Shown here: in pieces, positions 36,009-52,256 of the stretch
How the letters are laid out: each line of letters starts with the position of its first letter
Numbering within the stretch: the stretch's first letter is position 1
Source of the DNA: Ensifer aridi
Lineage (GTDB): Bacteria; Pseudomonadota; Alphaproteobacteria; Rhizobiales; Rhizobiaceae
Length of the DNA stretch: 64,000 nt
Direction of reading: 5' to 3'
Assembly: GCF_002078505.1 (NCBI RefSeq)
Contig: NZ_LUAV01000012.1
Span: 125,177-189,176 of the forward strand
The notes under the pieces: generated by a model
Databases searched by the model: none
The model's input: only the letters and a program-made list of their open reading frames with translations
What the model was told of the DNA's origin: nothing
Program-made: the position numbers and the translations under genes

Positions 36009-36776
36009 TCAAATCGCCTTGGCCACGCGTTGCAAAATGTCGAGATAGCCGCCGACGTCCCAAGCCGAACGGCCGATGAAAAGACCGTCGATATGGGGCT
36101 CAGCGATCAGTTCCTCGCAGTTCTCAGGGTGGACGCTGCCGCCGTAGAGCACCGGCACTACGACGCCGAGCGCGGCTTTTGCGACCTCGGCGATCAGTCT
36201 GTGGCGAGCATCTGCATAATCGGCGGTCGCCGGTATGCCGTTTACCCCGATCGCCCAGACGGGCTCGTAGGCGAGCAGGATCGGCGCATTCGTGGCCGCT
36301 CCTTCGAGGAAGGCGAAGGCGCCTTCCACCTGACGCGTCAACACCGCATCCGCCTGGCCGGCCTCCCGTTCGGCGAGCGTTTCGCCGATGCAGATCAGCG
36401 GAACGAGACCGTGCTTCACGGCAGCCGCGGTCTTCAGCCCCACGGTGCGGTCGGTCTCGCCGAAATGTTCACGGCGCTCGCTGTGACCGAGCTCGACGAT
36501 GTCGAGATGGCAGTCCTTGAGCATCAGGGGGGAGATCTCTCCGGTCCAGGCCCCTGCATCTTCCCAATGCATGTTTTGCGCACCGACCTTGACGCTCGTC
36601 GCCTTCAGCCTCTCCTTCACCTGCCGAACCGCCGTAAAAGGCGGAATGACGAAACGTTGGATGCGCGGGTCGCGCGAAGCATCGGCGGCGGCAAGACCGT
36701 CGGCGAAGGTCATCGCCTCCGCCAGCGTCTTGTTCATCTTCCAGCTCGTGCCGACCCAGAGCCCTGACTTGCTCAT
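36009..36776 (-). CDS. tpiB: TpiB/EryH-type triose-phosphate-isomerase-like enzyme (D-3-tetrulose-4-phosphate isomerase)
   Basis: This 255-residue TIM-barrel enzyme has the triosephosphate isomerase catalytic residues: Lys in TSWKMNKT, His in [13 protein letters not shown], and Glu in [10 protein letters not shown], with the YGGSV phosphate site near the end. The Brucella homologue (TpiA2, renamed EryH) isomerises D-3-tetrulose-4-phosphate in the erythritol pathway. It overlaps the stop of the DeoR gene by four bases (ATGA) and precedes rpiB by 43 bp. The isomerase role is inferred from context and homology; some glycolytic activity cannot be excluded. Confidence 0.9.
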
Positions 36777-41804: not shown

Positions 41805-43319
41805 TCATGCCGCCGCCTGCTGTCCCTCGAGCCAGCCGCTGAAGGCCCGCTTCTCCGCCTCGCTCATATGCAGGCCGTGCTTGGTACGGCGTTCGATGAG
41901 GTCTTCCGCCGTGCGTGCCCATTCGGTCTCGATGAGGAAGCGGGCCTCACGCTCGCGGAAGAGTGGGCCGAAGGCCGTGCCGAGGTCGTCAAGCGACGTG
42001 GCGTCGTCAATGAGTTCATAGGTCCTCGTGCCGTAAAGGCGCGCGTAATGTTTGGCGAGATCGGCCGGCAGCCAGCGATAGCGGGCACGTAGATCGCCGA
42101 GGAACTGGTCGAAATCCGCATCCGCCATGTCGCCGCCCGGGAGGTGAGCGCGCGCGGTCCAGGCAGGGCCCATCTTCGGAAAGAAAGGCTTCAGCCGCTC
42201 GAGCGCGTGCTCGGACAGCTTGCGAAAGGTGGTGATCTTGCCGCCGAACACCGAGAGCAGCGGGGCCTCGCCCTTGCCGCCATCGAGCTCAAAAATATAG
42301 TCGCGCGTCACCGCCGACGGGTTTTCGGCATTATCGTCGTAAAGCGGGCGCACGCCGGAGAAGCTGTGCAGGATGTCGCCTTCGCTAAGCTGCTGCTTGA
42401 AGTAGCGGTTCACCGATTTGAGCAGATAGGCAATTTCGTTGCGGTCCGCGGCCACGTCCTCCGGCCGGCCCTCATAGGGAATGTCCGTGGTCCCGATCAG
42501 CGCCAAGTCGTTCTGGTAGGGATTGATGAAGATGACGCGCTTGTCGGGATTCTGGACGAGATAGGCCTGTCTTCCTTCCCAGAACTTCGGCACGACGATA
42601 TGGCTGCCCTTGACGAGGCGGACGCTGCGGCGGGAGTTGAGCCCCGCTATGCGGCCGATCACGTCATTGACCCAGGGCCCGGCGGTGTTGACCACACAGC
42701 GTGCATTGACCTCCGTCTTCGCACCGGTCTCAGTATCCGTCATCTCGACATGCCAGAGATCGCCGCGGCGGCGAATGCTGCTGCAGGCGGTACGGGTCAG
42801 AATTCGGGCGCCGCTCTTACCAGCGTCGAGGGCGTTCAAGACGACAAGCCGTGAGTCGTCGACCCAACAGTCGGAATATTCGAAGGCCTTGCCATAGGCC
42901 GGTTTGATCGGCGCGCCTTCGGGTGCGGTGCGCAGATCGAGCGTCCGTGTTCCGGGAAGACGCTTGCGGCCGCCGAGATGATCGTAGAGGAAAAGCCCGA
43001 GCCGAACGAGCCAGGCCGGCCGGTCAGCGGGGTTGTGCGGCAGCACGAAGCGCATCGGCCAGATGATGTGCGGTGCAGACTCTAGAAGGACCTCGCGCTC
43101 GATCAGCGCCTCGCGCACCAGGCGGAACTCGTAGTATTCCAGATAGCGCAGGCCCCCATGCACCAGCTTGCCCGAACGCGAACTGGTGCCCTGCGCCAGG
43201 TCGTCCTTTTCGCAGAGCAGGACCGAAAGCCCCCTTCCCGCTGCGTCACGGGCAATGCCCGCGCCGTTAATGCCGCCGCCGATGACGAAAAGATCGTATG
43301 TCCCGGTTTCGGTACTCAC
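41805..43319 (-). CDS. eryB: FAD-dependent erythritol-4-phosphate dehydrogenase (GlpD family)
   Basis: This 504-residue flavoprotein of the glycerol-3-phosphate dehydrogenase (GlpD) family has the FAD fold FVIGGGINGAGIARDAAGRG and a SGKLVHGGLRYLEY segment typical of GlpD. The C-terminal GlpD domain covers about 390-500. In Brucella and rhizobia EryB oxidises L-erythritol-4-phosphate to L-3-tetrulose-4-phosphate. The start is taken as GTG 43319 because AGGAGA lies 7 bp upstream; an in-frame ATG at 43346 overlaps the preceding gene and lacks a ribosome site. Its position among ery genes supports the role over glycerol use. Confidence 0.9.
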   Translation of the reverse strand: MSTETGTYDLFVIGGGINGAGIARDAAGRGLSVLLCEKDDLAQGTSSRSGKLVHGGLRYLEYYEFRLVREALIEREVLLESAPHIIWPMRFVLPHNPADRPAWLVRLGLFLYDHLGGRKRLPGTRTLDLRTAPEGAPIKPAYGKAFEYSDCWVDDSRLVVLNALDAGKSGARILTRTACSSIRRRGDLWHVEMTDTETGAKTEVNARCVVNTAGPWVNDVIGRIAGLNSRRSVRLVKGSHIVVPKFWEGRQAYLVQNPDKRVIFINPYQNDLALIGTTDIPYEGRPEDVAADRNEIAYLLKSVNRYFKQQLSEGDILHSFSGVRPLYDDNAENPSAVTRDYIFELDGGKGEAPLLSVFGGKITTFRKLSEHALERLKPFFPKMGPAWTARAHLPGGDMADADFDQFLGDLRARYRWLPADLAKHYARLYGTRTYELIDDATSLDDLGTAFGPLFREREARFLIETEWARTAEDLIERRTKHGLHMSEAEKRAFSGWLEGQQAAA

Positions 43320-43342
43320 GTGCCTGTCTCCTGTCACGCTGG

Positions 43343-44014
43343 TCATGCAGCTGCGGTACCGTCGCGCTTGTCCTGCAGCCCGTAGCTGGCAAAGCCCTCG
43401 AGAACGCCGGCGATCTCTGCGTCCGGCAGGATCACCGGTCCGCCGATCAACAGCGTGTGGTAATACTGCTTGGCGATCGTCTCGAGCTCGATCCCCGCCC
43501 ACATCGCCTTCTCGAGGCTTGGCCCGGTCGCGATCATGCCGTGATTGGCCATGAGACAGGCCGAACGCCCCTCCATCGCTTTCAGCACATTTTCCGAAAG
43601 CGCCTTGGTGCCATAGCGGGCGTAATCGGCGACGCGAACATCGACTCCGCCAAAGGCTGCGATCATGTAGTGGCAAGCGGGAATGGGTTTACCCGCGATC
43701 GCGAGGATTGTCGAAAAGGTCGCGTGCGTATGGACAACTGCGCAGACTTCCGGCCGCGCCCGCATGATGTCGAGGTGAAAGGGCCACTCGACCGACGGTT
43801 TCCTGGGCCCGGACCAGGCGCCATACTCGCCGTCGATCGGCATCGCGACGATCATTTCCGGCGTCATATCGGCATAGGGGATGGCGGACGGCGTTATCAG
43901 CATCGTGTCGCCGTGGCGCACACTGATATTGCCCGACGTGCCCTGATTGAGGCCGATCGCATTCATGTGGCGGCAATGGTCGATGATCGACCGGCGCAGT
44001 TGAAGTTCGCTCAT
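43343..44014 (-). CDS. Class II aldolase, L-fuculose-phosphate-aldolase type
   Basis: This 223-residue protein matches the L-fuculose-1-phosphate/ribulose-5-phosphate epimerase aldolase family. It has GTSGNISVR (phosphate loop), a VHTHATFSTI motif with two metal His residues, and MANHGMIATG. It would cleave a ketose phosphate to a triose or glycolaldehyde fragment, or epimerise it. It lies between the hydroxyacid dehydrogenase and eryB. I recall fucA1 for this position in S. meliloti, but the erythritol route itself needs no aldolase, so another polyol is probably the target. Confidence 0.85.
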   Translation of the reverse strand: MSELQLRRSIIDHCRHMNAIGLNQGTSGNISVRHGDTMLITPSAIPYADMTPEMIVAMPIDGEYGAWSGPRKPSVEWPFHLDIMRARPEVCAVVHTHATFSTILAIAGKPIPACHYMIAAFGGVDVRVADYARYGTKALSENVLKAMEGRSACLMANHGMIATGPSLEKAMWAGIELETIAKQYYHTLLIGGPVILPDAEIAGVLEGFASYGLQDKRDGTAAA

Positions 44015-44023
44015 CGCCTCACC

Positions 44024-45061
44024 TCAGCACGGATTGACCGGCGGCAGGCCGGCGATGTAGCGGCGCACCTCTTCCGCCGCCATCTCCGCGGCATAGGTGA
44101 CGGTACGCACGGAGGCGCCGGCGATATGCGGCGTCAGCGTCACATTGGGGAGCTTCAGGAGCGGCCACTCTTCCGGCACCGGCTCCACCGCGAAGGTCTC
44201 CAGCATGGCGCTTGCGAGATGACCGTTGATGAGATTCTCGTAAAGCGCGTCGTAATCGCAAAGCGGCCCGCGCGCAGTGTTCACGAAGATCGCCCCCGGC
44301 TTCATCTTCGCGAAAGTCTCCGCGTTCATTATGTTCTTTGTCTCTTCCGTCACGCGCGGATGCAGCGTCACCACGTCGGAGCGCTCCAGCAATTCATTGA
44401 GCGAGACATGCTCGACGCCGGCGTTCCGGTCTTCGGCGCTGAGCTGCACATAGGGGTCATGGACGAGCACCTTGGTGCCGAAGGCGCGGAGCAGCCGGAC
44501 GACCTTGGTGCCGATATTGCCGTAACCGATGACGCCTACCGTCATTTCAGAGAGCTCGCGCCCCGTGCGATCGGCACGATAGAGATCGCCGCGCCATTCG
44601 CCCCGCCTCAGCGCCTCATGCCCAACGCGGATCAGCCGAGTCTCGGCAAGGATGGCGCCTATGGTGAACTCGGCGACTGCACTCGCATTGCGACCGGGCG
44701 TGTTGACGACGCGGACGCCCGCATCGCGAGCGGCCTTCATGTCGATATTGACCGGACCGCCGCGCGACACAGCAACAAGCTTCAAGCTCGGCAGGTCCGC
44801 CAACATAGTGCGCGACAGCGGCGCGAGCTGGGTCACCAGGATTTCGGCGTCGCCGATGAAGCGGACGATCTCGTCCGGCTTGCCAAGATATTCCTTTAGC
44901 CCGTCCATGCCCTCGACCGCATAGCCGTGCTCCATCGGCACATCCGGCCAGGGCTGTTCAAGCAACCGTATCTCGTGCCCATCGCCGCAGGCCTCGACGA
45001 TCTTGTCGCGAAACACATCCGGCAGCATGAACCGGTCGCCGATAATGGCTATCTTCTTCAT
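44024..45061 (-). CDS. D-isomer-specific 2-hydroxyacid dehydrogenase (SerA-like)
   Basis: This 345-residue NAD-dependent dehydrogenase has an N-terminal catalytic domain (SRGGPVNIDMKAARDAG), the nucleotide-binding GVIGYGNIGTKVV at about residues 158-170, and the catalytic Arg, Glu and His region ending in LTPHIAGASVRTVTY. It resembles 3-phosphoglycerate dehydrogenase but lacks an ACT tail. Within the polyol locus it may oxidise or reduce a hydroxy-acid by-product. Its start overlaps the stop of eryA (ATGA), so it is translated with it. In S. meliloti I recall the gene at this position as rbtA. Confidence 0.83.
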   Translation of the reverse strand: MKKIAIIGDRFMLPDVFRDKIVEACGDGHEIRLLEQPWPDVPMEHGYAVEGMDGLKEYLGKPDEIVRFIGDAEILVTQLAPLSRTMLADLPSLKLVAVSRGGPVNIDMKAARDAGVRVVNTPGRNASAVAEFTIGAILAETRLIRVGHEALRRGEWRGDLYRADRTGRELSEMTVGVIGYGNIGTKVVRLLRAFGTKVLVHDPYVQLSAEDRNAGVEHVSLNELLERSDVVTLHPRVTEETKNIMNAETFAKMKPGAIFVNTARGPLCDYDALYENLINGHLASAMLETFAVEPVPEEWPLLKLPNVTLTPHIAGASVRTVTYAAEMAAEEVRRYIAGLPPVNPC

Positions 45062-46635
45062 TGCGGTCTTTCCTGTGGAGTTCCCGTTCCGGCGGCGTGG
45101 GAGAGCGCGTGCCAGACGGGTCTGAGCGCGAGGCGCGACTGCTGGTAGGCTGGGAAAAGCGCGTCGTAGCGACGGACAAGATCCTCATCGGCCAGCTCTG
45201 CCGTGCGATGATGCGGCCGCACCCAATCGTCGACGCACTCAGCCATCGAGGGATAAATGCCAAGCGAAACGGCGGCAATCATCGCCGCCCCGGCCGCACC
45301 CGCCTCTTCGCGTTCGCTCGTCTGGACGCTGGCGCCGAGCGCACCGCCGAGGATGCGGCGGAGAGAAGCACTGCGGGCGGCACCGCCCGTCAGGCGAATG
45401 CATTTCGGCAGCGGCCCCATCTCGGCATAGCAATCCCGGGCGGCAAGGGCGAGGCCGTCGAAGACCGCGCGCAGCATGTCGCCGAAACCATGCGCCATCG
45501 AAAGCCCTACGAAGGAGGCGCGAGCCGAGGCATCGACAAAGGGGCCGCGCTCACCCGCCTCCGAGATGTAGGGCTGGAAGAGAAGCGGCGCGTCCTTCGC
45601 GTCGGCGAGCCAGCCATCCACATGGGCAAGCAGATCGCTCTTGGACTTCTCGACCCCCATGCCCTTGAGCACGCCGCCCGCAAGCGACAGAATCCAGTCG
45701 ATGTTGAGCGTCGCAGCCATGTTCGACTGCATCTGCGTATAGGTGTCCGGGATCGGCATGCACATGGTGTAGCCGGTGAGATCGCGGTTGAGGCGCACGT
45801 CGTCGGCACTCGTCGCCAGGCGCATATGCATGCCGGTCGAGCCGATGATGGAGCAGCCGGTGTCGGTTCCGGGATCGTAGAGACCCGCCCCGAGCGCGGT
45901 GCAGACGACGTCTACATAGCCAAGCACCACCGGAATCCCCGCGGGCAGCCCCGTCACGGCAGCGGCGGCCGACGAGAGGGCGTGATACGCCGTCGCCCCG
46001 TCGACGATTTCCGGCAGCAGGTGCTTGAGTTTTTCAAGGCCAAGGAAGGCGATCACATCGTCGCAATATTGCCGCGTGCGGAAATCGCCGAAGGTGAAAT
46101 TCGCCTCCGAGGGATCGGTGGCGCGCCTGTCCGTGAGGTTGAAGTAGAGCCAGTCCTTGCAGTGAAAGGCGGTCGCAGCACCTTCGAGCATTTCCGGCGC
46201 ATGCTCCTGCATCCAGCGCAGTTGCGGCCCCTGTTGGCAGGCGGCAAGCCCGGATCCGGTGCGCGCGAAGCGCTCGACGTCACCGCTCTCGCCGCGCAGC
46301 CGCTCGACGACCGCGCTGGCACGCGCATCGAGCCAGAGCCAGCCCTTGCCGACCGGCTCCCCATCCTTATCGATCAACCAGGTGCCGTCCCCCTGACCGG
46401 TCACCGCGATCGCGGCAACACGGCCAGGGAGGTTCTCGATCCTGGCCGAGAGCTCGACCAGGGTTTTCACTGTATCCGCCCAGGTGCGCCGGAGGTCCTG
46501 GACGGCACCGGCGCGGCCCACCGCCTCATAGCTGTTCGGAACCGCGGCCATGGCGAGCTGCCGGCCGCCGAGATCGAAGGCGACCGACTTGATGACCGAC
46601 GTCCCGGCATCGATGCCGATCAGGATGTCGCGCAT
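45058..46635 (-). CDS. eryA: Erythritol kinase (FGGY family)
   Basis: This 525-residue FGGY kinase closely resembles Brucella EryA. It shares IGIDAGTSVIKSVAFDL, IAVTGQGDGTWL, FHCKDWLYFNLTDRRATDPS, SEAGERGPFVDA and LTGGAARSASLR. EryA phosphorylates erythritol to L-erythritol-4-phosphate, the entry step, and in Sinorhizobium is reported to accept adonitol and L-arabitol as well. The length (about 519 in Brucella) agrees. Its ATG at 46635 shares one base with the stop of the upstream ATPase, and it overlaps the next gene by four bases. It is the second-step gene after the importer in the same long transcript. Confidence 0.93.
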   Translation of the reverse strand: MRDILIGIDAGTSVIKSVAFDLGGRQLAMAAVPNSYEAVGRAGAVQDLRRTWADTVKTLVELSARIENLPGRVAAIAVTGQGDGTWLIDKDGEPVGKGWLWLDARASAVVERLRGESGDVERFARTGSGLAACQQGPQLRWMQEHAPEMLEGAATAFHCKDWLYFNLTDRRATDPSEANFTFGDFRTRQYCDDVIAFLGLEKLKHLLPEIVDGATAYHALSSAAAAVTGLPAGIPVVLGYVDVVCTALGAGLYDPGTDTGCSIIGSTGMHMRLATSADDVRLNRDLTGYTMCMPIPDTYTQMQSNMAATLNIDWILSLAGGVLKGMGVEKSKSDLLAHVDGWLADAKDAPLLFQPYISEAGERGPFVDASARASFVGLSMAHGFGDMLRAVFDGLALAARDCYAEMGPLPKCIRLTGGAARSASLRRILGGALGASVQTSEREEAGAAGAAMIAAVSLGIYPSMAECVDDWVRPHHRTAELADEDLVRRYDALFPAYQQSRLALRPVWHALSHAAGTGTPQERPQ

Positions 46636-47759
46636 CAGGCGAGCTCCTCTCCATGCGAGATCGCATTGCCGCTCTCGCTGTCGAAGACATGCAGGCTCGA
46701 TGGCTCGAGCCGGATGCCGATCGGTTGACCGATCTCGAGGCTCGTCCGGTCATGTTCGACGAGAACCATCGTGCCGCCGGCGAAGTCGGCCGCGATGTGG
46801 GTTTGATCTCCAAGCCACTGGTTAACGGCGACGCGGCCAGTGACTCCGTCGGCACTGCGCCGAACGGCATAGGGTCGAACGCCGAGAACCACTTTCTGCC
46901 GCTTCAAAAGCGCTTCCCGAACCGGATGCGAGAAATCGGAGGTGTGATAGTCGAGGTGTACTCCGTCCTTGAGACCGAAGCGGATGCCGGTGCCCGATCC
47001 GCTGACGCTCGCCTCGAAGACGTTCATCGGCGGCTCGCCGACGAACGTGCCGGTGAAGAGATTTGCCGGCCTTTCCTTGATCTTCTTGGGCGTGTCGAAC
47101 TGCTGCAGCACGCCCCCTTCCATCACGGCGATGCGATCCGCAAGCGCGTTCGCCTCGGTCTGGTCGTGGGTGACGAGGATCGCCGTGAGCCCGCGCTCCT
47201 TGATGTAGTGCTTGATGCGGCCGCGCAGCACGGCACGCAATTGCGGTTCGAGCTGGCCCATCGGCTCGTCGAGAAGATGCAGGGCGGCATCGCGGATCAG
47301 CGCTCGCCCGAGGGAGGCACGCTGCTGCTGGCCGCCGGAGATCGAGCTTGGATAGCGGCCGAGGATGTCCTCGATCTCGAGCAGCTTGGCGATGCTCGCG
47401 ACCTTCTCGTCGACAACGGCTTGCGACAGCTTCGATGCCTTCAGCGCGAAGCCGATGTTCTCGCGCACCGTCAGCGGCGGATAGAGCGAATAGCCCTCAA
47501 AGGCCATGGCGACGTTGCGGCGGACCGGCGGAAGCGTTTGCACCTGCCGGCTGCCAAGCGAGATCGTGCCACGCGAGACGGGCTCGAAGCCGGCAATCAT
47601 CCTGAGGGTCGAGGTCTTGCCGCAGCCGGACGAACCGAGAAGCGCGATGATCTCGCCCTTCTTGACCTCCATGCTGAGCCTCTTCACGGCGTGAACGCCG
47701 TAGTCGACCGGACCGTAGAACTTGTCGACGTTATCGATCGAAAGAGCGGTATCGTTCAT
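46635..47759 (-). CDS. Polyol ABC transporter ATP-binding protein, second of a pair (altered Q-loop and D-loop)
   Basis: This 374-residue MalK/UgpC-like ATPase has Walker A GSSGCGKT, a full signature SISGGQQQRASLGRAL, Walker B LHLLDEP with the catalytic Glu, and switch VTHDQTEA. The Q-loop, usually FQ, reads FEGYSLYP (Gln to Glu). The D-loop, usually SALDAKLR, reads GQLEPQLR. A TOBE-type regulatory region follows from about residue 285. It is paired by ATGA overlap with another ATPase (47756-48874) that carries complementary changes. Together they probably form a heterodimer that powers the polyol importer. Confidence 0.88.
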   Translation of the reverse strand: MNDTALSIDNVDKFYGPVDYGVHAVKRLSMEVKKGEIIALLGSSGCGKTSTLRMIAGFEPVSRGTISLGSRQVQTLPPVRRNVAMAFEGYSLYPPLTVRENIGFALKASKLSQAVVDEKVASIAKLLEIEDILGRYPSSISGGQQQRASLGRALIRDAALHLLDEPMGQLEPQLRAVLRGRIKHYIKERGLTAILVTHDQTEANALADRIAVMEGGVLQQFDTPKKIKERPANLFTGTFVGEPPMNVFEASVSGSGTGIRFGLKDGVHLDYHTSDFSHPVREALLKRQKVVLGVRPYAVRRSADGVTGRVAVNQWLGDQTHIAADFAGGTMVLVEHDRTSLEIGQPIGIRLEPSSLHVFDSESGNAISHGEELA

Positions 47760-48874
47760 GCCGCTTCTCCGTTGCGCTTGGATGTGACTTCGGAAGGCCG
47801 GATGCGCTGTCCGCTCGCCCTGTCGAAGAGGAAGGCCGCTCGGCCGTTGACGGCGATGTGTGCAGGCCCGGCGGTGGGGCCGGGTGTGCCGGCGGGGCGT
47901 GAAACCAGAATCTCGCGACCGCGCGCGGTCAGCGCCAGCGTCACGGTCTTCTCGTTGAGCGGCGTTTCCGCCTCGACCGTCACCGGGACCGCACCGAGCG
48001 TTGAGGCTTCAGTGAAGGCGATCGTCTCCGGACGCAGCCCGAGGACGCATTCCTTGCCGACGATCTCGGCGCCGAAGCCCGGAAGGCGGACACGGACGCC
48101 GGAGAGTTCGACAAAGGCGCCGTCCGGTCCGCGTTGCGGCACGACATCGAGGAGGTTGATGGTCGGGTCGCCGAAGAGGCGGGCGATCTCAATATCGGCC
48201 GGTGAATTGTAGATCTCCGCCGGCGTGCCGATCTGTCGAATGCGCCCCTCTGCCATGACGGCGATGCGGTCGCCGAGTGCCATCGCTTCCTTGTAGTCCT
48301 GGGTGACGTAGATCACGGTCGCGCCCTGGGCGGCGAGCAGCCGGGGCAGTTCCAGCCGCATCTCGAAACGCAGCTTGGCGTCGACGTTGCGGAGCGGGTC
48401 GTCTAGCAGCAGCAGCGGCGGCGAACCGACGAGCGCGCGGGCGAGCGCCGTACGCTGTTTCTGCCCGTTCGAGAGCGCCTTTGGATGGTGGCTCAGCACA
48501 TGATCTATCTTCAACAGCTTCGCCACTTTCTGCACGCCTCCGGCGATCGCCTCCTTGGAAGACTTCCGCGAGGTCAGCGCACTGGCGATATTGTCGGAGG
48601 CGCTCATATGCGGGAACAGCGCGAAGTTCTGGAAAGCCATGCCGACGCCGCGATGCTCGGCATCGACCGCCGTCATGTCTTCGCCGCCGATCAGCACCCT
48701 GCCCTCGTCCGGATCGATGACGCCGGCGATCAGCCGGAGCAGCACGGTCTTGCCGGAACCCGACGGTCCGAAGAGCACCAGCCGCTCGCCATCCGCGACT
48801 TCGAGCGACAGGTCGTCGAGAACCGTCTGGCTCTTGTAGCGCTTGACGATGTTCTTCAATTGCAGCGTGGTCAT
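47756..48874 (-). CDS. Polyol ABC transporter ATP-binding protein, first of a pair (degenerate catalytic site)
   Basis: This 372-residue ATPase has an intact Walker A GPSGSGKT and Q-loop FQNFALFP. The signature reads LSNGQKQRTALARAL instead of LSGGQ. Walker B ends LLLLDDPLRNVD, with Asp for the catalytic Glu. The switch motif reads VTQDYKEA, with Gln for the switch His. I checked the Glu-to-Asp and His-to-Gln changes in the nucleotide sequence. The enzyme should bind ATP but hydrolyse it poorly by itself. With the partner encoded downstream, one composite site would be canonical and one degenerate. A TOBE-like tail follows from about residue 290. Confidence 0.88.
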   Translation of the reverse strand: MTTLQLKNIVKRYKSQTVLDDLSLEVADGERLVLFGPSGSGKTVLLRLIAGVIDPDEGRVLIGGEDMTAVDAEHRGVGMAFQNFALFPHMSASDNIASALTSRKSSKEAIAGGVQKVAKLLKIDHVLSHHPKALSNGQKQRTALARALVGSPPLLLLDDPLRNVDAKLRFEMRLELPRLLAAQGATVIYVTQDYKEAMALGDRIAVMAEGRIRQIGTPAEIYNSPADIEIARLFGDPTINLLDVVPQRGPDGAFVELSGVRVRLPGFGAEIVGKECVLGLRPETIAFTEASTLGAVPVTVEAETPLNEKTVTLALTARGREILVSRPAGTPGPTAGPAHIAVNGRAAFLFDRASGQRIRPSEVTSKRNGEAA

Positions 48875-48880
48875 TGTCGA

Positions 48881-49738
48881 TTATCCCTTCACCGCGCCAA
48901 GCGACAGGCCCTCGACGAGGTAGCGCTGGGCGTAGAGTGCGAGTGCCAGCGTCGGCGTGATCGAGAGCACGATCGCGGCGGCGATCTGGCCGTACTGGAT
49001 GCCGGAAGCCGTGACGAAAGCGAGCGCACCGACGGTGACTGGCTGCTTGTCGGCGGAGGCCAGCACCAGCGCGAAGACGAAATTGTTCCAGGCGAAGATG
49101 AAGGCGAGCAGGCCGGCCGCCGCGATCCCAGGGCCGGCGAGCGGCAGGGCGATCTTGCGGAAGGTCGAGAACCAGGAATGGCCGGCGATGCGATAGGCAT
49201 ATTCGACGTCGGCCGAGATGTCCTCGAAATAGCCGCGCACGATCCAGAGGATGAGCGGCAGGCAAATCAGCTGGTAGACCCAGATGAGACCGAAATAGGT
49301 ATTCGAGAGGCCAAGCCACTGGAAATATTGCGTCAGCGGCAACAGTACGAGCAGCGGCGGCGCGAAGCGGAAGGAGAGCAGCGTGAAAGCGATGTCCTCC
49401 GATCCCCTGAACTTGTGCCGTGCGAAGGCGTAAGCAGCGGGAACGCCCAGCACCAAAGCCAGCGCTACTGAAGCGACCGACAGGAACACCGAGTTGCCGA
49501 GATTGCGCATGAAGGCGATGTCGAGCGTACCAGCGGCCGTCGTGAGCTTGCCGGTGATCAGCGCCGCATAGTTGTCGAGCGTCGGCGTGAAGATCACCGA
49601 GGGAGGAATTCTGAGGATTGTCTCGTTCGTCTGGAAGGACATGAGGAAGATCCAGACGATCGGGAACATGAAGAAGATGACCACCAGAGTCAGGGCGATG
49701 CCGCGCAGGATACGTTCGAGCGGAGACATAGTTTCCAT
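48881..49738 (-). CDS. Polyol ABC transporter permease (MalG/UgpE-like)
   Basis: This 285-residue permease of the carbohydrate uptake-1 class has about six membrane segments. An EAA-type loop is at about residues 185-205 (VEYAYRIAGHSWFSTFRKIA), followed by a Pro. An N-terminal cytoplasmic MET-SPLERIL tail precedes helix 1, and the C terminus is short (LVEGLSLGAVKG), as in MalG-type subunits. It lies 6 bp upstream of the first ATPase gene and 10 bp after the partner permease. Confidence 0.88.
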   Translation of the reverse strand: METMSPLERILRGIALTLVVIFFMFPIVWIFLMSFQTNETILRIPPSVIFTPTLDNYAALITGKLTTAAGTLDIAFMRNLGNSVFLSVASVALALVLGVPAAYAFARHKFRGSEDIAFTLLSFRFAPPLLVLLPLTQYFQWLGLSNTYFGLIWVYQLICLPLILWIVRGYFEDISADVEYAYRIAGHSWFSTFRKIALPLAGPGIAAAGLLAFIFAWNNFVFALVLASADKQPVTVGALAFVTASGIQYGQIAAAIVLSITPTLALALYAQRYLVEGLSLGAVKG

Positions 49739-49748
49739 GGGAACCTCC

Positions 49749-50672
49749 TTACGCCTCGCCGCGGGCGCGTTCGCGCAGCCGGAGCCAGTTCTTGATGAAG
49801 ACGTTCGAGAGAATGTAGGTGATCGCCCAGAGGATGATCAGCAGCGCGGCGGAGCGCCCGACATTGGTCGACTGGAAGAAGTTGAGGTAGGCCTCGACCT
49901 GGAAGACGGTCAGCGTGTCGCCAGGCCCGCCCTGCGTCATCGCATAGATGATATCGAATTGCTGGATTGAGTCGAGCAAACGGAAGAGCGTCGCCGTCAG
50001 GATGTAGGGCGTCAGCATCGGCAAGGTGATGCGGAAGAAGACGAAGGTGCGCGGCACGCCGTCGAGCGCCGCCGCTTCGAAGGGCTGCGTCGGCAGCGAG
50101 CGCAGTCCAGCGAGAAGCAGGATCATGATAAATGGCGTGTAGACCCAGATGTCGACGAGCACGACTGTGAGCAACGCCGTATCTGGCGACGAGGCCCAGC
50201 GGAAATTCTCAAGACCGACAAGGCTCGCGAAGTAGCTAAGAATTCCGAAGCCGGGATTGGTCATCAGCTTCCACATCAGCGCGGCGAGCGCCGGCGCCGT
50301 CATCAGCGGCAGAAGCAGCATGATCGAGATGAAGTTGTTGACCGTCGTACGCCGTTGCAGGAGCAGCGCGATCCCGAGCCCGAGCAAGAGCTCTAGGCCG
50401 ACGGTGACGCCCGCATAGACCAGCGAGATCCTCAGCGTGTTCCAGAAGCCGGGATCGGTGAAGAAGTTCAGATAGTTCTCACCCCAGTTGAACTGGCGTG
50501 CCCATGGCTGGCTCAGTCGGTAGCGCTGGAAGGAATAGATCACCGCCGTGAAAAACGGGATCAGGATACCGATGCAGACAAGAAGCGCCGGCAAGGAGAG
50601 CACATAGGGAAGAACCCTCTTGCTGATCCTGAATCCGCCGGTCCTTGCACCGGGTTGCGTCACAGAAGCCAT
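49749..50672 (-). CDS. Polyol ABC transporter permease (MalF/UgpA-like)
   Basis: This 307-residue permease has about six membrane segments and a MalF/UgpA-type EAA loop (LRSLPTQPFEAAALDGVPRT). ATG 50672 is preferred because CGGAG lies 8 bp upstream; the longer frame adds 12 residues. With the next gene it forms the channel for polyols. Family and context support an importer of erythritol, adonitol and L-arabitol (the Mpt system of S. meliloti); the ligand is inferred from the locus. Confidence 0.87.
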   Translation of the reverse strand: MASVTQPGARTGGFRISKRVLPYVLSLPALLVCIGILIPFFTAVIYSFQRYRLSQPWARQFNWGENYLNFFTDPGFWNTLRISLVYAGVTVGLELLLGLGIALLLQRRTTVNNFISIMLLLPLMTAPALAALMWKLMTNPGFGILSYFASLVGLENFRWASSPDTALLTVVLVDIWVYTPFIMILLLAGLRSLPTQPFEAAALDGVPRTFVFFRITLPMLTPYILTATLFRLLDSIQQFDIIYAMTQGGPGDTLTVFQVEAYLNFFQSTNVGRSAALLIILWAITYILSNVFIKNWLRLRERARGEA

Positions 50673-50810
50673 GGCCAGCTCCGTTCGGAATGCTTGTCTC
50701 GATGACATGAAGGGGTCGGCCGCGGCTGGCGCAGCCAGACCCCCTCCTCGTGCTTGTGCATGTTATCGATACGCCGACCGCCGCGGGCGAGCCGACGCAC
50801 CCTCTCGAGC

Positions 50811-52256
50811 TTAACCGAGCCCGGCTTCCGCGAGCTGCCGGTTGATGCTCTCGGCGAGCTTGTCGAGCCCCTCATCGACCGGCACCTCCTTCGCCACCAT
50901 TTTCTGCAGCGTCGCTGCCCATTCGGTGGTGAGGTCGAAGAAGAGCGGCTGGGCAGTGAAGTGGATCTTCGCGCCGGGTGCGGAAATATCATGCATTTCC
51001 ACATAGCCCGGATAGCTCTTGTTCAGCCGTTCGCGGAAGATTTCGTCCTTCCAGACCGAAGCACGGACCGGGTTGACGAAGTCCATCTTCGTCGCACCGA
51101 AGATCGCGTGCTCCAGACCGGTTGCCCATTGCAGGAAATACCAGGTCGCGTCCTTGTCCTTGGAGAAGTTGGACATCGACAGCGACCAGATCCAGATGTT
51201 CGGCGTTGGCGCGGTGGCGGCCGGATTGGCGGCGAAAGGCGCGTAAGCGAGCTTGCCCGCCATCTTGTTGTCGCCGCCGTTCATGAAATAGCCGAGGATA
51301 TCGGCGTCGTAGATCATGGCGGAAGCGCCGGCGCCGAGGTCGGTGCCGACCTGATACCAGGTATAGGTCGACCAGTCCTTCGGACCGCTTTCCTGAATCA
51401 TCTGCACCCATTTGGCGTGGAAGGCCTTCGATTCCGGCGTGTTCATCGCGGCAGAAAGCTTGCCGTCGGCCGAGACGTTCAGATCCTTCTGGCCGAAATT
51501 GGCATAGCCGGAAAGGAAGCCCGGATGGATCGTCGCCCAGGAGCGCGAGCCGCGCACGCCGATGCCGTAGACACCGCCACCGACATCCTTGGTGAGCTTC
51601 GCTGCAGTTACCAGAAGCTCATCGAGGTTCTTCGGAACGCTGACCCCGACCTTGTCGAACATCTCCTTGTTATAGGAGAGGTTGTTCTGCTCGTAGCCCC
51701 ACGGAATGCACCACTGCTTGGCATCTTCCGAACCGAGCGCCCCGCCCGGCTGGCCATTCCAGGCGCAGGATGCCTTGACGCCCGGCAGGAAGTCGTCCCA
51801 CCCATATTGCGGGTTGGTCTTCGACGGATCCTTGATCCATTCGTTGAGGTCGGTGATCCAGCCGGCCGGACCATAGGTCCAGGTCATATAGGCGCCGGTC
51901 ATGAAGGCATCGTACTCCGACGAGCTCGATGAGAGCGCCGCCGTCACCTTGTCGAAATAGACGTCCTCGGGGAAGACGTCATAGGTGACTTCGATGCCGG
52001 TCAGATCCTTGAAGGTCTGAAGATTTGCAATCATCGCATCGGCATAGGGGTGCTTGTTCAGAAGCAGCTTCAGCGATTTGCCCGAATGCGCCTTCCAGTC
52101 GAAATCGGCTGCGAGCGCCTGCGTCGACATCATGTTGAACAGGGTGCCGGCGGTGCCTGCCGTCAAGCCTGCCGCGCCGAGACCTTTCAACAGGCCGCGA
52201 CGGTCCACCTCTCCGCGCAGGAATGCGCTAATGAGGTCTTTCTCCTTATCGTACAT
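50811..52256 (-). CDS. Polyol ABC transporter substrate-binding protein with Tat-like signal
   Basis: This 481-residue binding protein of extracellular family 1 begins with a 17-residue polar stretch, then DRRGLLKGLGAAGLTAG, which resembles a Tat signal with twin Arg, and a cleavage region near ALAAD (about residue 50). The mature part has the family pattern (TYDVFPEDVYFDKVTAAL, GYEQNNLSYNKEMFDKVGV). It is followed, in order, by two permeases and two ATPases, all on the minus strand. The substrate is a polyol by context; the paired catabolic genes make erythritol the best candidate. Confidence 0.88.
   Translation of the reverse strand: MYDKEKDLISAFLRGEVDRRGLLKGLGAAGLTAGTAGTLFNMMSTQALAADFDWKAHSGKSLKLLLNKHPYADAMIANLQTFKDLTGIEVTYDVFPEDVYFDKVTAALSSSSSEYDAFMTGAYMTWTYGPAGWITDLNEWIKDPSKTNPQYGWDDFLPGVKASCAWNGQPGGALGSEDAKQWCIPWGYEQNNLSYNKEMFDKVGVSVPKNLDELLVTAAKLTKDVGGGVYGIGVRGSRSWATIHPGFLSGYANFGQKDLNVSADGKLSAAMNTPESKAFHAKWVQMIQESGPKDWSTYTWYQVGTDLGAGASAMIYDADILGYFMNGGDNKMAGKLAYAPFAANPAATAPTPNIWIWSLSMSNFSKDKDATWYFLQWATGLEHAIFGATKMDFVNPVRASVWKDEIFRERLNKSYPGYVEMHDISAPGAKIHFTAQPLFFDLTTEWAATLQKMVAKEVPVDEGLDKLAESINRQLAEAGLG

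Follow-up and report, generated by a model that had tools for sequence, protein, structure and literature searches.

A fairly likely interpretation of two adjacent, unlike ATPases (A and B) encoded in a 64,000-nucleotide stretch of Ensifer aridi DNA (contig NZ_LUAV01000012.1, positions 125,177 to 189,176, assembly GCF_002078505.1; this whole stretch is referred to as the window) is that they form an obligate heterodimer driving a sugar-alcohol importer of the MptABCDE type of root-nodule bacteria (substrates erythritol, adonitol and L-arabitol), in which the ATP site built on the core of A would hydrolyse ATP and that built on the core of B would bind it and clamp the dimer. The pair carries five substitutions in total (Glu88 and Glu171 in A; Asn136, Asp159 and Gln192 in B). 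In A, the Walker A Lys48, the signature (SISGGQ), the Walker B Glu165 (LHLLDEP) and the switch His198 (VTHD) are accompanied by Glu88 in the Q-loop (FEGY) and Glu171 in the D-loop (GQLEP); in B, the Walker A Lys42, the Q-loop Gln82 (FQNF) and the D-loop Asp165 (RNVDA) are accompanied by Asn136 in the signature (LSNGQ), Asp159 in Walker B (LLLLDDP) and Gln192 in place of the switch His (VTQD). The Walker A Lys, the catalytic Glu and the switch His are all present in A only, and not in B. An earlier sequence-only reading of this DNA had claimed these five changes, and every motif that it quoted was located where it had placed it. Both proteins are of the MalK/UgpC (CUT1) type: A matches the Pfam families ABC_tran and TOBE_2 (with OB_MalK at 26.9 bits, just below the cut-off of 27), B matches ABC_tran and OB_MalK (28.9 bits), and genes for an SBP_bac_1 binding protein and two BPD_transp_1 permeases adjoin. 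The UgpC subfamily model NF008653 was not reached by either protein (309.7 bits for A and 301.3 for B vs. a curated cut-off of 432), and UgpC or MalK proper were ruled out as the identity of A or B by scores below the curated cut-offs.

According to an exporter-focused review (PMC7756269), one ATP site of an ATP-binding cassette (ABC) transporter consists of the Walker A and B motifs, Q-loop and H-loop of one subunit together with the signature of its partner. In a head-to-tail dimer, in which each site joins one subunit's core to the partner's signature, the LSNGQ of B belongs to the A-core site, which by this rule holds Glu165, His198, the Q-loop Glu88 and LSNGQ, while the B-core site holds Asp159, Gln192, the Q-loop Gln82 and the ISGGQ of A. 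Thus, with a Q-loop Glu and LSNGQ in the one and with the catalytic Glu and switch His missing from the other, neither site is canonical. As to the D-loops, Glu171 of A would face the B-core site and Asp165 of B the A-core site. In the mechanism that we propose, A and B would form an obligate heterodimer, unlike MalK-type ATPases, which usually pair as homodimers; the A-core site (Walker A/B and His of A plus LSNGQ of B) would perform most or all of the ATP hydrolysis, and the B-core site (Walker A, Asp159 and Gln192 of B plus ISGGQ of A) would keep ATP bound and help the dimer to close, with slow or no hydrolysis.

The substitutions are shared by all relatives in which the pair was read. A genome scan with B yielded 292 confirmed relatives, the best 80 of which, together with the window, form our set of close pairs; in all 81, A keeps FEGY, GQLE, DEP and VTHD and B keeps LSNGQ, DDP, NVDA and VTQD (A being aligned only in part in L035, L057 and L084, and Walker A misaligned in one row), and A adjoins B in 80/80 loci. 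Searches with A found matches in 6/385 genomes of the class (E 1e-85), 5/398 of the phylum (1e-78) and 11/199 of the order (1e-78), each count including the own genome. Part of these matches are ordinary canonical ATPases, including four single ones (L105, L113, L114, L115) that were not counted as pairs, and 14 different genomes carry a true pair at ~51-78% identity (one of them, L103, 75-78% identical, is possibly of the same species as one of the 80). All five substitutions are kept in these 14/14 diverged pairs, and hence in 95/95 with the 81 close ones; the intact Walker B Glu of A was readable in 13 of the 14, and the Q-loop of A reads FEAY in L110. One condition under which the sequence-only reading would have failed, absence of the changes from relatives, is therefore contradicted by the 81/81 close and 14/14 diverged pairs. 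Each of the five residues shows synonymous codon variation, so the invariance lies at the protein level, and the ratio of nonsynonymous to synonymous substitution rates (dN/dS) is 0.07-0.21 for both genes (seven pairwise comparisons each), which argues that B is not decaying. Recent decay or sequencing error as the source of the degeneration deserves practically no credence: no point in its favor was found, and it is ruled out by the conservation in 95 pairs, the silent codon variation and a dN/dS well below 1.

Invariance alone was discarded as proof of importance, being weak evidence where about half of all columns of the nucleotide-binding domain (NBD) are invariant among the 81 pairs (125/235 in A, 127/235 in B); the argument rests on which residues are the substituted ones. 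Their fixation across the relatives examined makes it probable that the two ATP sites differ in function. The sequence-only reading had gone further, proposing that a heterodimer, if formed, has one canonical and one degenerate composite site, as in some exporters and CFTR. The changes are indeed real, conserved and complementary, and are most naturally taken as those of a heterodimer with two unlike sites, but the proposed split does not survive, because the signature change of B falls in the A-core site. An exporter-style layout of one fully canonical and one degenerate site might still be defended on the grounds that both chemistry residues are gone from B and kept in A, and that a change at the third signature position may be almost neutral, this position drifting in A itself (SAGQ in L101 and L102, 2/14 diverged pairs). 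We nevertheless hold it to be unlikely and reject it on site assignment: Asn136 of B and Glu88 of A both lie in the A-core site, which leaves no canonical site, and both are invariant in 95/95 pairs, unlike a neutral position (the Asn in the signature of B is invariant in all pairs read, unlike the third signature position of A). The unlike NBD pairs of TAP, CFTR and the ABCC proteins do resemble A and B in having the Walker B Glu replaced by Asp, a lost switch His and a signature change (PMC7756269). However, all noncanonical motifs of CFTR (ABCC7) cluster at one composite site, and every degenerate site in the human genome also has an altered signature contributed by the partner NBD (PMC7756269); by the site rule of the same review, this clustered layout of CFTR, TAP and ABCC was not found in the motifs of A and B. 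These systems are, moreover, mostly exporters (CFTR being a channel), whereas Mpt is an importer with unclustered changes.

In 77/80 loci, the stop codon of B lies within a 4-bp overlap (ATGA) with the start codon of A (3/80 are without it), an indirect sign that, like the co-occurrence of the two genes, makes a fixed asymmetric A-B heterodimer likely. A very improbable alternative is an active homodimer of A, with B as an exchangeable component, either an ATPase-like regulatory subunit or an inhibitor. That A alone combines the chemistry residues with an intact signature would suit such an arrangement, but the gene overlap suggests equal synthesis, the D-loop Glu and Q-loop Glu of A would deviate in both sites of a homodimer, and the genome searches with A met no orthologue of A without B alongside (14/14 orthologous loci).

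Among the ATPases of the genome itself, the pair stands apart. In a comparison set of 47 CUT1/PotA-like proteins (A, B and 45 from the better-scoring part of 152 genome matches), 43 have the canonical residue at each of the six positions tested, the consensus residue being present in 46 for the Q-loop Gln, 45 for the third and 46 for the fourth signature Gly, 46 for the Walker B Glu, 46 for the D-loop Asp and 45 for the switch His. The five substitutions are confined to A and B within this set, and thus do not look like chance; the other two deviants are a GlpS/GlpT-like pair. Two further tandem ATPase pairs (L093 and L095, on contigs 2 and 35) have LSGGD, LSGGE or LAGGD signatures, yet are canonical at the catalytic positions.

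The GlpS/GlpT-like pair lies in a locus (L094) with a DeoR-type regulator, a glycerol-3-phosphate dehydrogenase, two ATPases, two permeases and a binding protein, which, from its translations as read by eye and without a family search, reads as a glycerol locus of the glpSTPQUV type; a glycerol importer operon GlpSTPQUV has been named in Rhizobium leguminosarum (PMC7912956). Of 289 genomes searched, 33 gave a match, and the motifs of such a pair were read in 25 of these. In 25/25, GlpS has an intact signature and its switch His replaced by Thr (21) or Ser (4), and GlpT has lost the signature glycines and kept Glu and His. The His loss in S and the signature loss in T place both changes in one site, an exporter-like clustering. 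The Mpt pair resembles this one in belonging to a polyol importer and in consisting of two unlike ATPases encoded in tandem, the first of which has lost the switch His; it differs in that its Walker B, His and signature changes are all in B and hence split over two sites. With the signature change in the first subunit, Mpt does not show the GlpS/GlpT layout of His loss in the first and signature loss in the second. In a tree of 19/95 Mpt pairs and 9/25 Glp pairs (the distant own-genome ATPases L149, L153 and L154 being left out), B and GlpS group together (98/94), and this grouping persists when the C-terminal domain and the columns of the motifs are taken out (Shimodaira-Hasegawa-like approximate likelihood ratio test, 94); the grouping of A with GlpT has a p-value of 0.496 in the approximately unbiased test.

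Several points weigh against the division of labor proposed above. Sites with a Walker B Asp seem still capable of slow hydrolysis, and nucleotide-binding site 2 of ABCC1 with Gln at the switch His kept wild-type-like transport (PMC7756269), so that some activity may persist at the B-core site. The A-core site, with its two deviations (the Q-loop Glu and LSNGQ), might itself be weakened, and a homodimer of A, carrying Glu, His and an intact signature, may be active. The grouping of B with GlpS, for its part, is a split, and would be a clade only with the root placed outside it, both groups being on long branches; the Mpt permeases have better matches among the other permeases of the genome than in those of the glycerol-type importer. 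That grouping may therefore not mean a shared transporter history, and a common origin of the two complete transporters, Mpt and Glp, is not supported by the permeases. The residual activity that Walker B Asp and switch-position Gln retain in exporters (PMC7756269) also speaks for an improbable explanation in which both sites hydrolyse at lowered rates and the substitutions merely tune the turnover of a slow, tightly coupled importer; the loss of both Glu and His in one subunit, fixed in 95 pairs and joined by a D-loop Glu in the partner, would seem more than tuning needs. A tentative extension, to which we give less than even weight, is that the ATP cycle is split by function rather than by site, with chemistry on the one hand and sensing and clamping on the other divided between the sites. 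The A-core site would then keep the chemistry (Glu, His), with its phosphate sensing and clamping altered (Q-loop Glu, LSNGQ in trans); the B-core site would keep sensing and clamping (Q-loop Gln, intact signature), with its chemistry gone; one site would bind and retain ATP so that the dimer closes, and the other would consume it. On this view, a single ancestral subunit without the switch His would have led to two different outcomes, the Glp pair and the Mpt pair.

The gene neighborhood (listed below) agrees with the mptABCDE-ery polyol locus described by Geddes and colleagues (PMC3599248), as judged from orthology and from the gene order of S. meliloti, where the importer stands next to the ery genes. 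Ten window genes are syntenic with S. meliloti 4H41 (L013) at 88-96% identity, a count that omits an overlapping reverse open reading frame (ORF, 42144+), two more queried genes lying beyond the end of that locus; the conserved order is LuxR-type regulator, LsrR-like regulator, binding protein, two permeases, ATPase B, ATPase A, FGGY kinase, hydroxyacid dehydrogenase and FAD oxidoreductase. The orthologues of the two ATPases in that strain are 90.6% and 91.1% identical, and the FGGY kinase follows in identical order in all four loci compared (L013, L014, L027 and L053). From operon order rather than an annotated record, we infer that B is MptD and A is MptE. Three triosephosphate isomerase homologues occur in the genome, one of them inside the window. 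The MptABCDE importer is known from Sinorhizobium meliloti (Geddes, Hausner and Oresnik, 2013; PMC3599248), a paper whose main text never uses the word ATPase and whose transporter comparisons relied on MptA alone; strains of S. meliloti with an mptB permease mutation plus smo mutations do not use erythritol (PMC10433430). Transport of erythritol, adonitol and L-arabitol is literature knowledge of the S. meliloti orthologue and would extend to E. aridi. In the permeases, located in 79/80 loci, the coupling motif of the MalG-like protein is the atypical EYA(Y/H)RI(A/G) in 79/79 loci read, and the UgpA-like permease carries the standard EAA motif; the atypical motif is a possible partner of the Q-loop Glu of A.

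Table 1. Positions of the two ATPases, neighboring genes of the polyol locus and the compared glycerol-type pair
Feature	Position	Strand	Remarks
ATPase A (374 aa)	46635-47759	-	ORF start and end exactly as in the sequence-only reading
ATPase B (372 aa)	47756-48874	-	ORF start and end exactly as in the sequence-only reading
Permease, MalG-like, BPD_transp_1	48881..49738	-	Atypical coupling motif EYAYRIA
Permease, UgpA-like, BPD_transp_1	49749..50708	-	Standard EAA motif FEAAALDG
Solute-binding protein, SBP_bac_1, MptA position	50811..52256	-	
FGGY kinase, inferred EryA position	45058..46635	-	Directly downstream of ATPase A
FAD-dependent oxidoreductase, glycerol-3-phosphate dehydrogenase-like, EryB candidate	41805..43676	-	ORF start uncertain
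Triosephosphate isomerase homologue, TpiB candidate	36009..36776	-	Genome match C12:161206-161934
GlpS/GlpT-like ATPases	L094:5272-7534		Contig 16, ~49.3-51.5 kb

MalK of MalFGK2 is the same type of ATPase, with an OB/TOBE C-terminal domain, but it is a homodimer with two canonical sites. The Mpt system itself is already known, as are degenerate sites in sugar importers: RbsA and NupO of Bacillus subtilis, importers of ribose and guanosine, have one degenerate ATP site (PMC11466899). They differ from Mpt in carrying two NBDs in one chain, with the second Walker A Lys lost, and are type II importers in the classification of that paper. The suggestion of the sequence-only reading that such a layout is unusual for a carbohydrate importer is thus only partly right, given RbsA, NupO and the genome's own glycerol-type pair. 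In the open-access literature searched, a fixed pair with changes over both sites was not found for a CUT1-type importer.

Overall, the exporter-focused review (PMC7756269) regards it as unclear what functional advantage a transporter gains from retaining a crippled ATP site, and the Mpt pair offers a bacterial importer, tractable in a laboratory strain, with a fixed asymmetry over both sites, in a genome that also holds a GlpST-like importer with changes clustered in one. A layout split by function, if true, would be unlike the clustered degenerate site of exporters. Taken together, the Mpt and GlpST-like pairs would make it possible to tell binding, clamping and hydrolysis apart by swapping residues and scoring growth in a simple assay.

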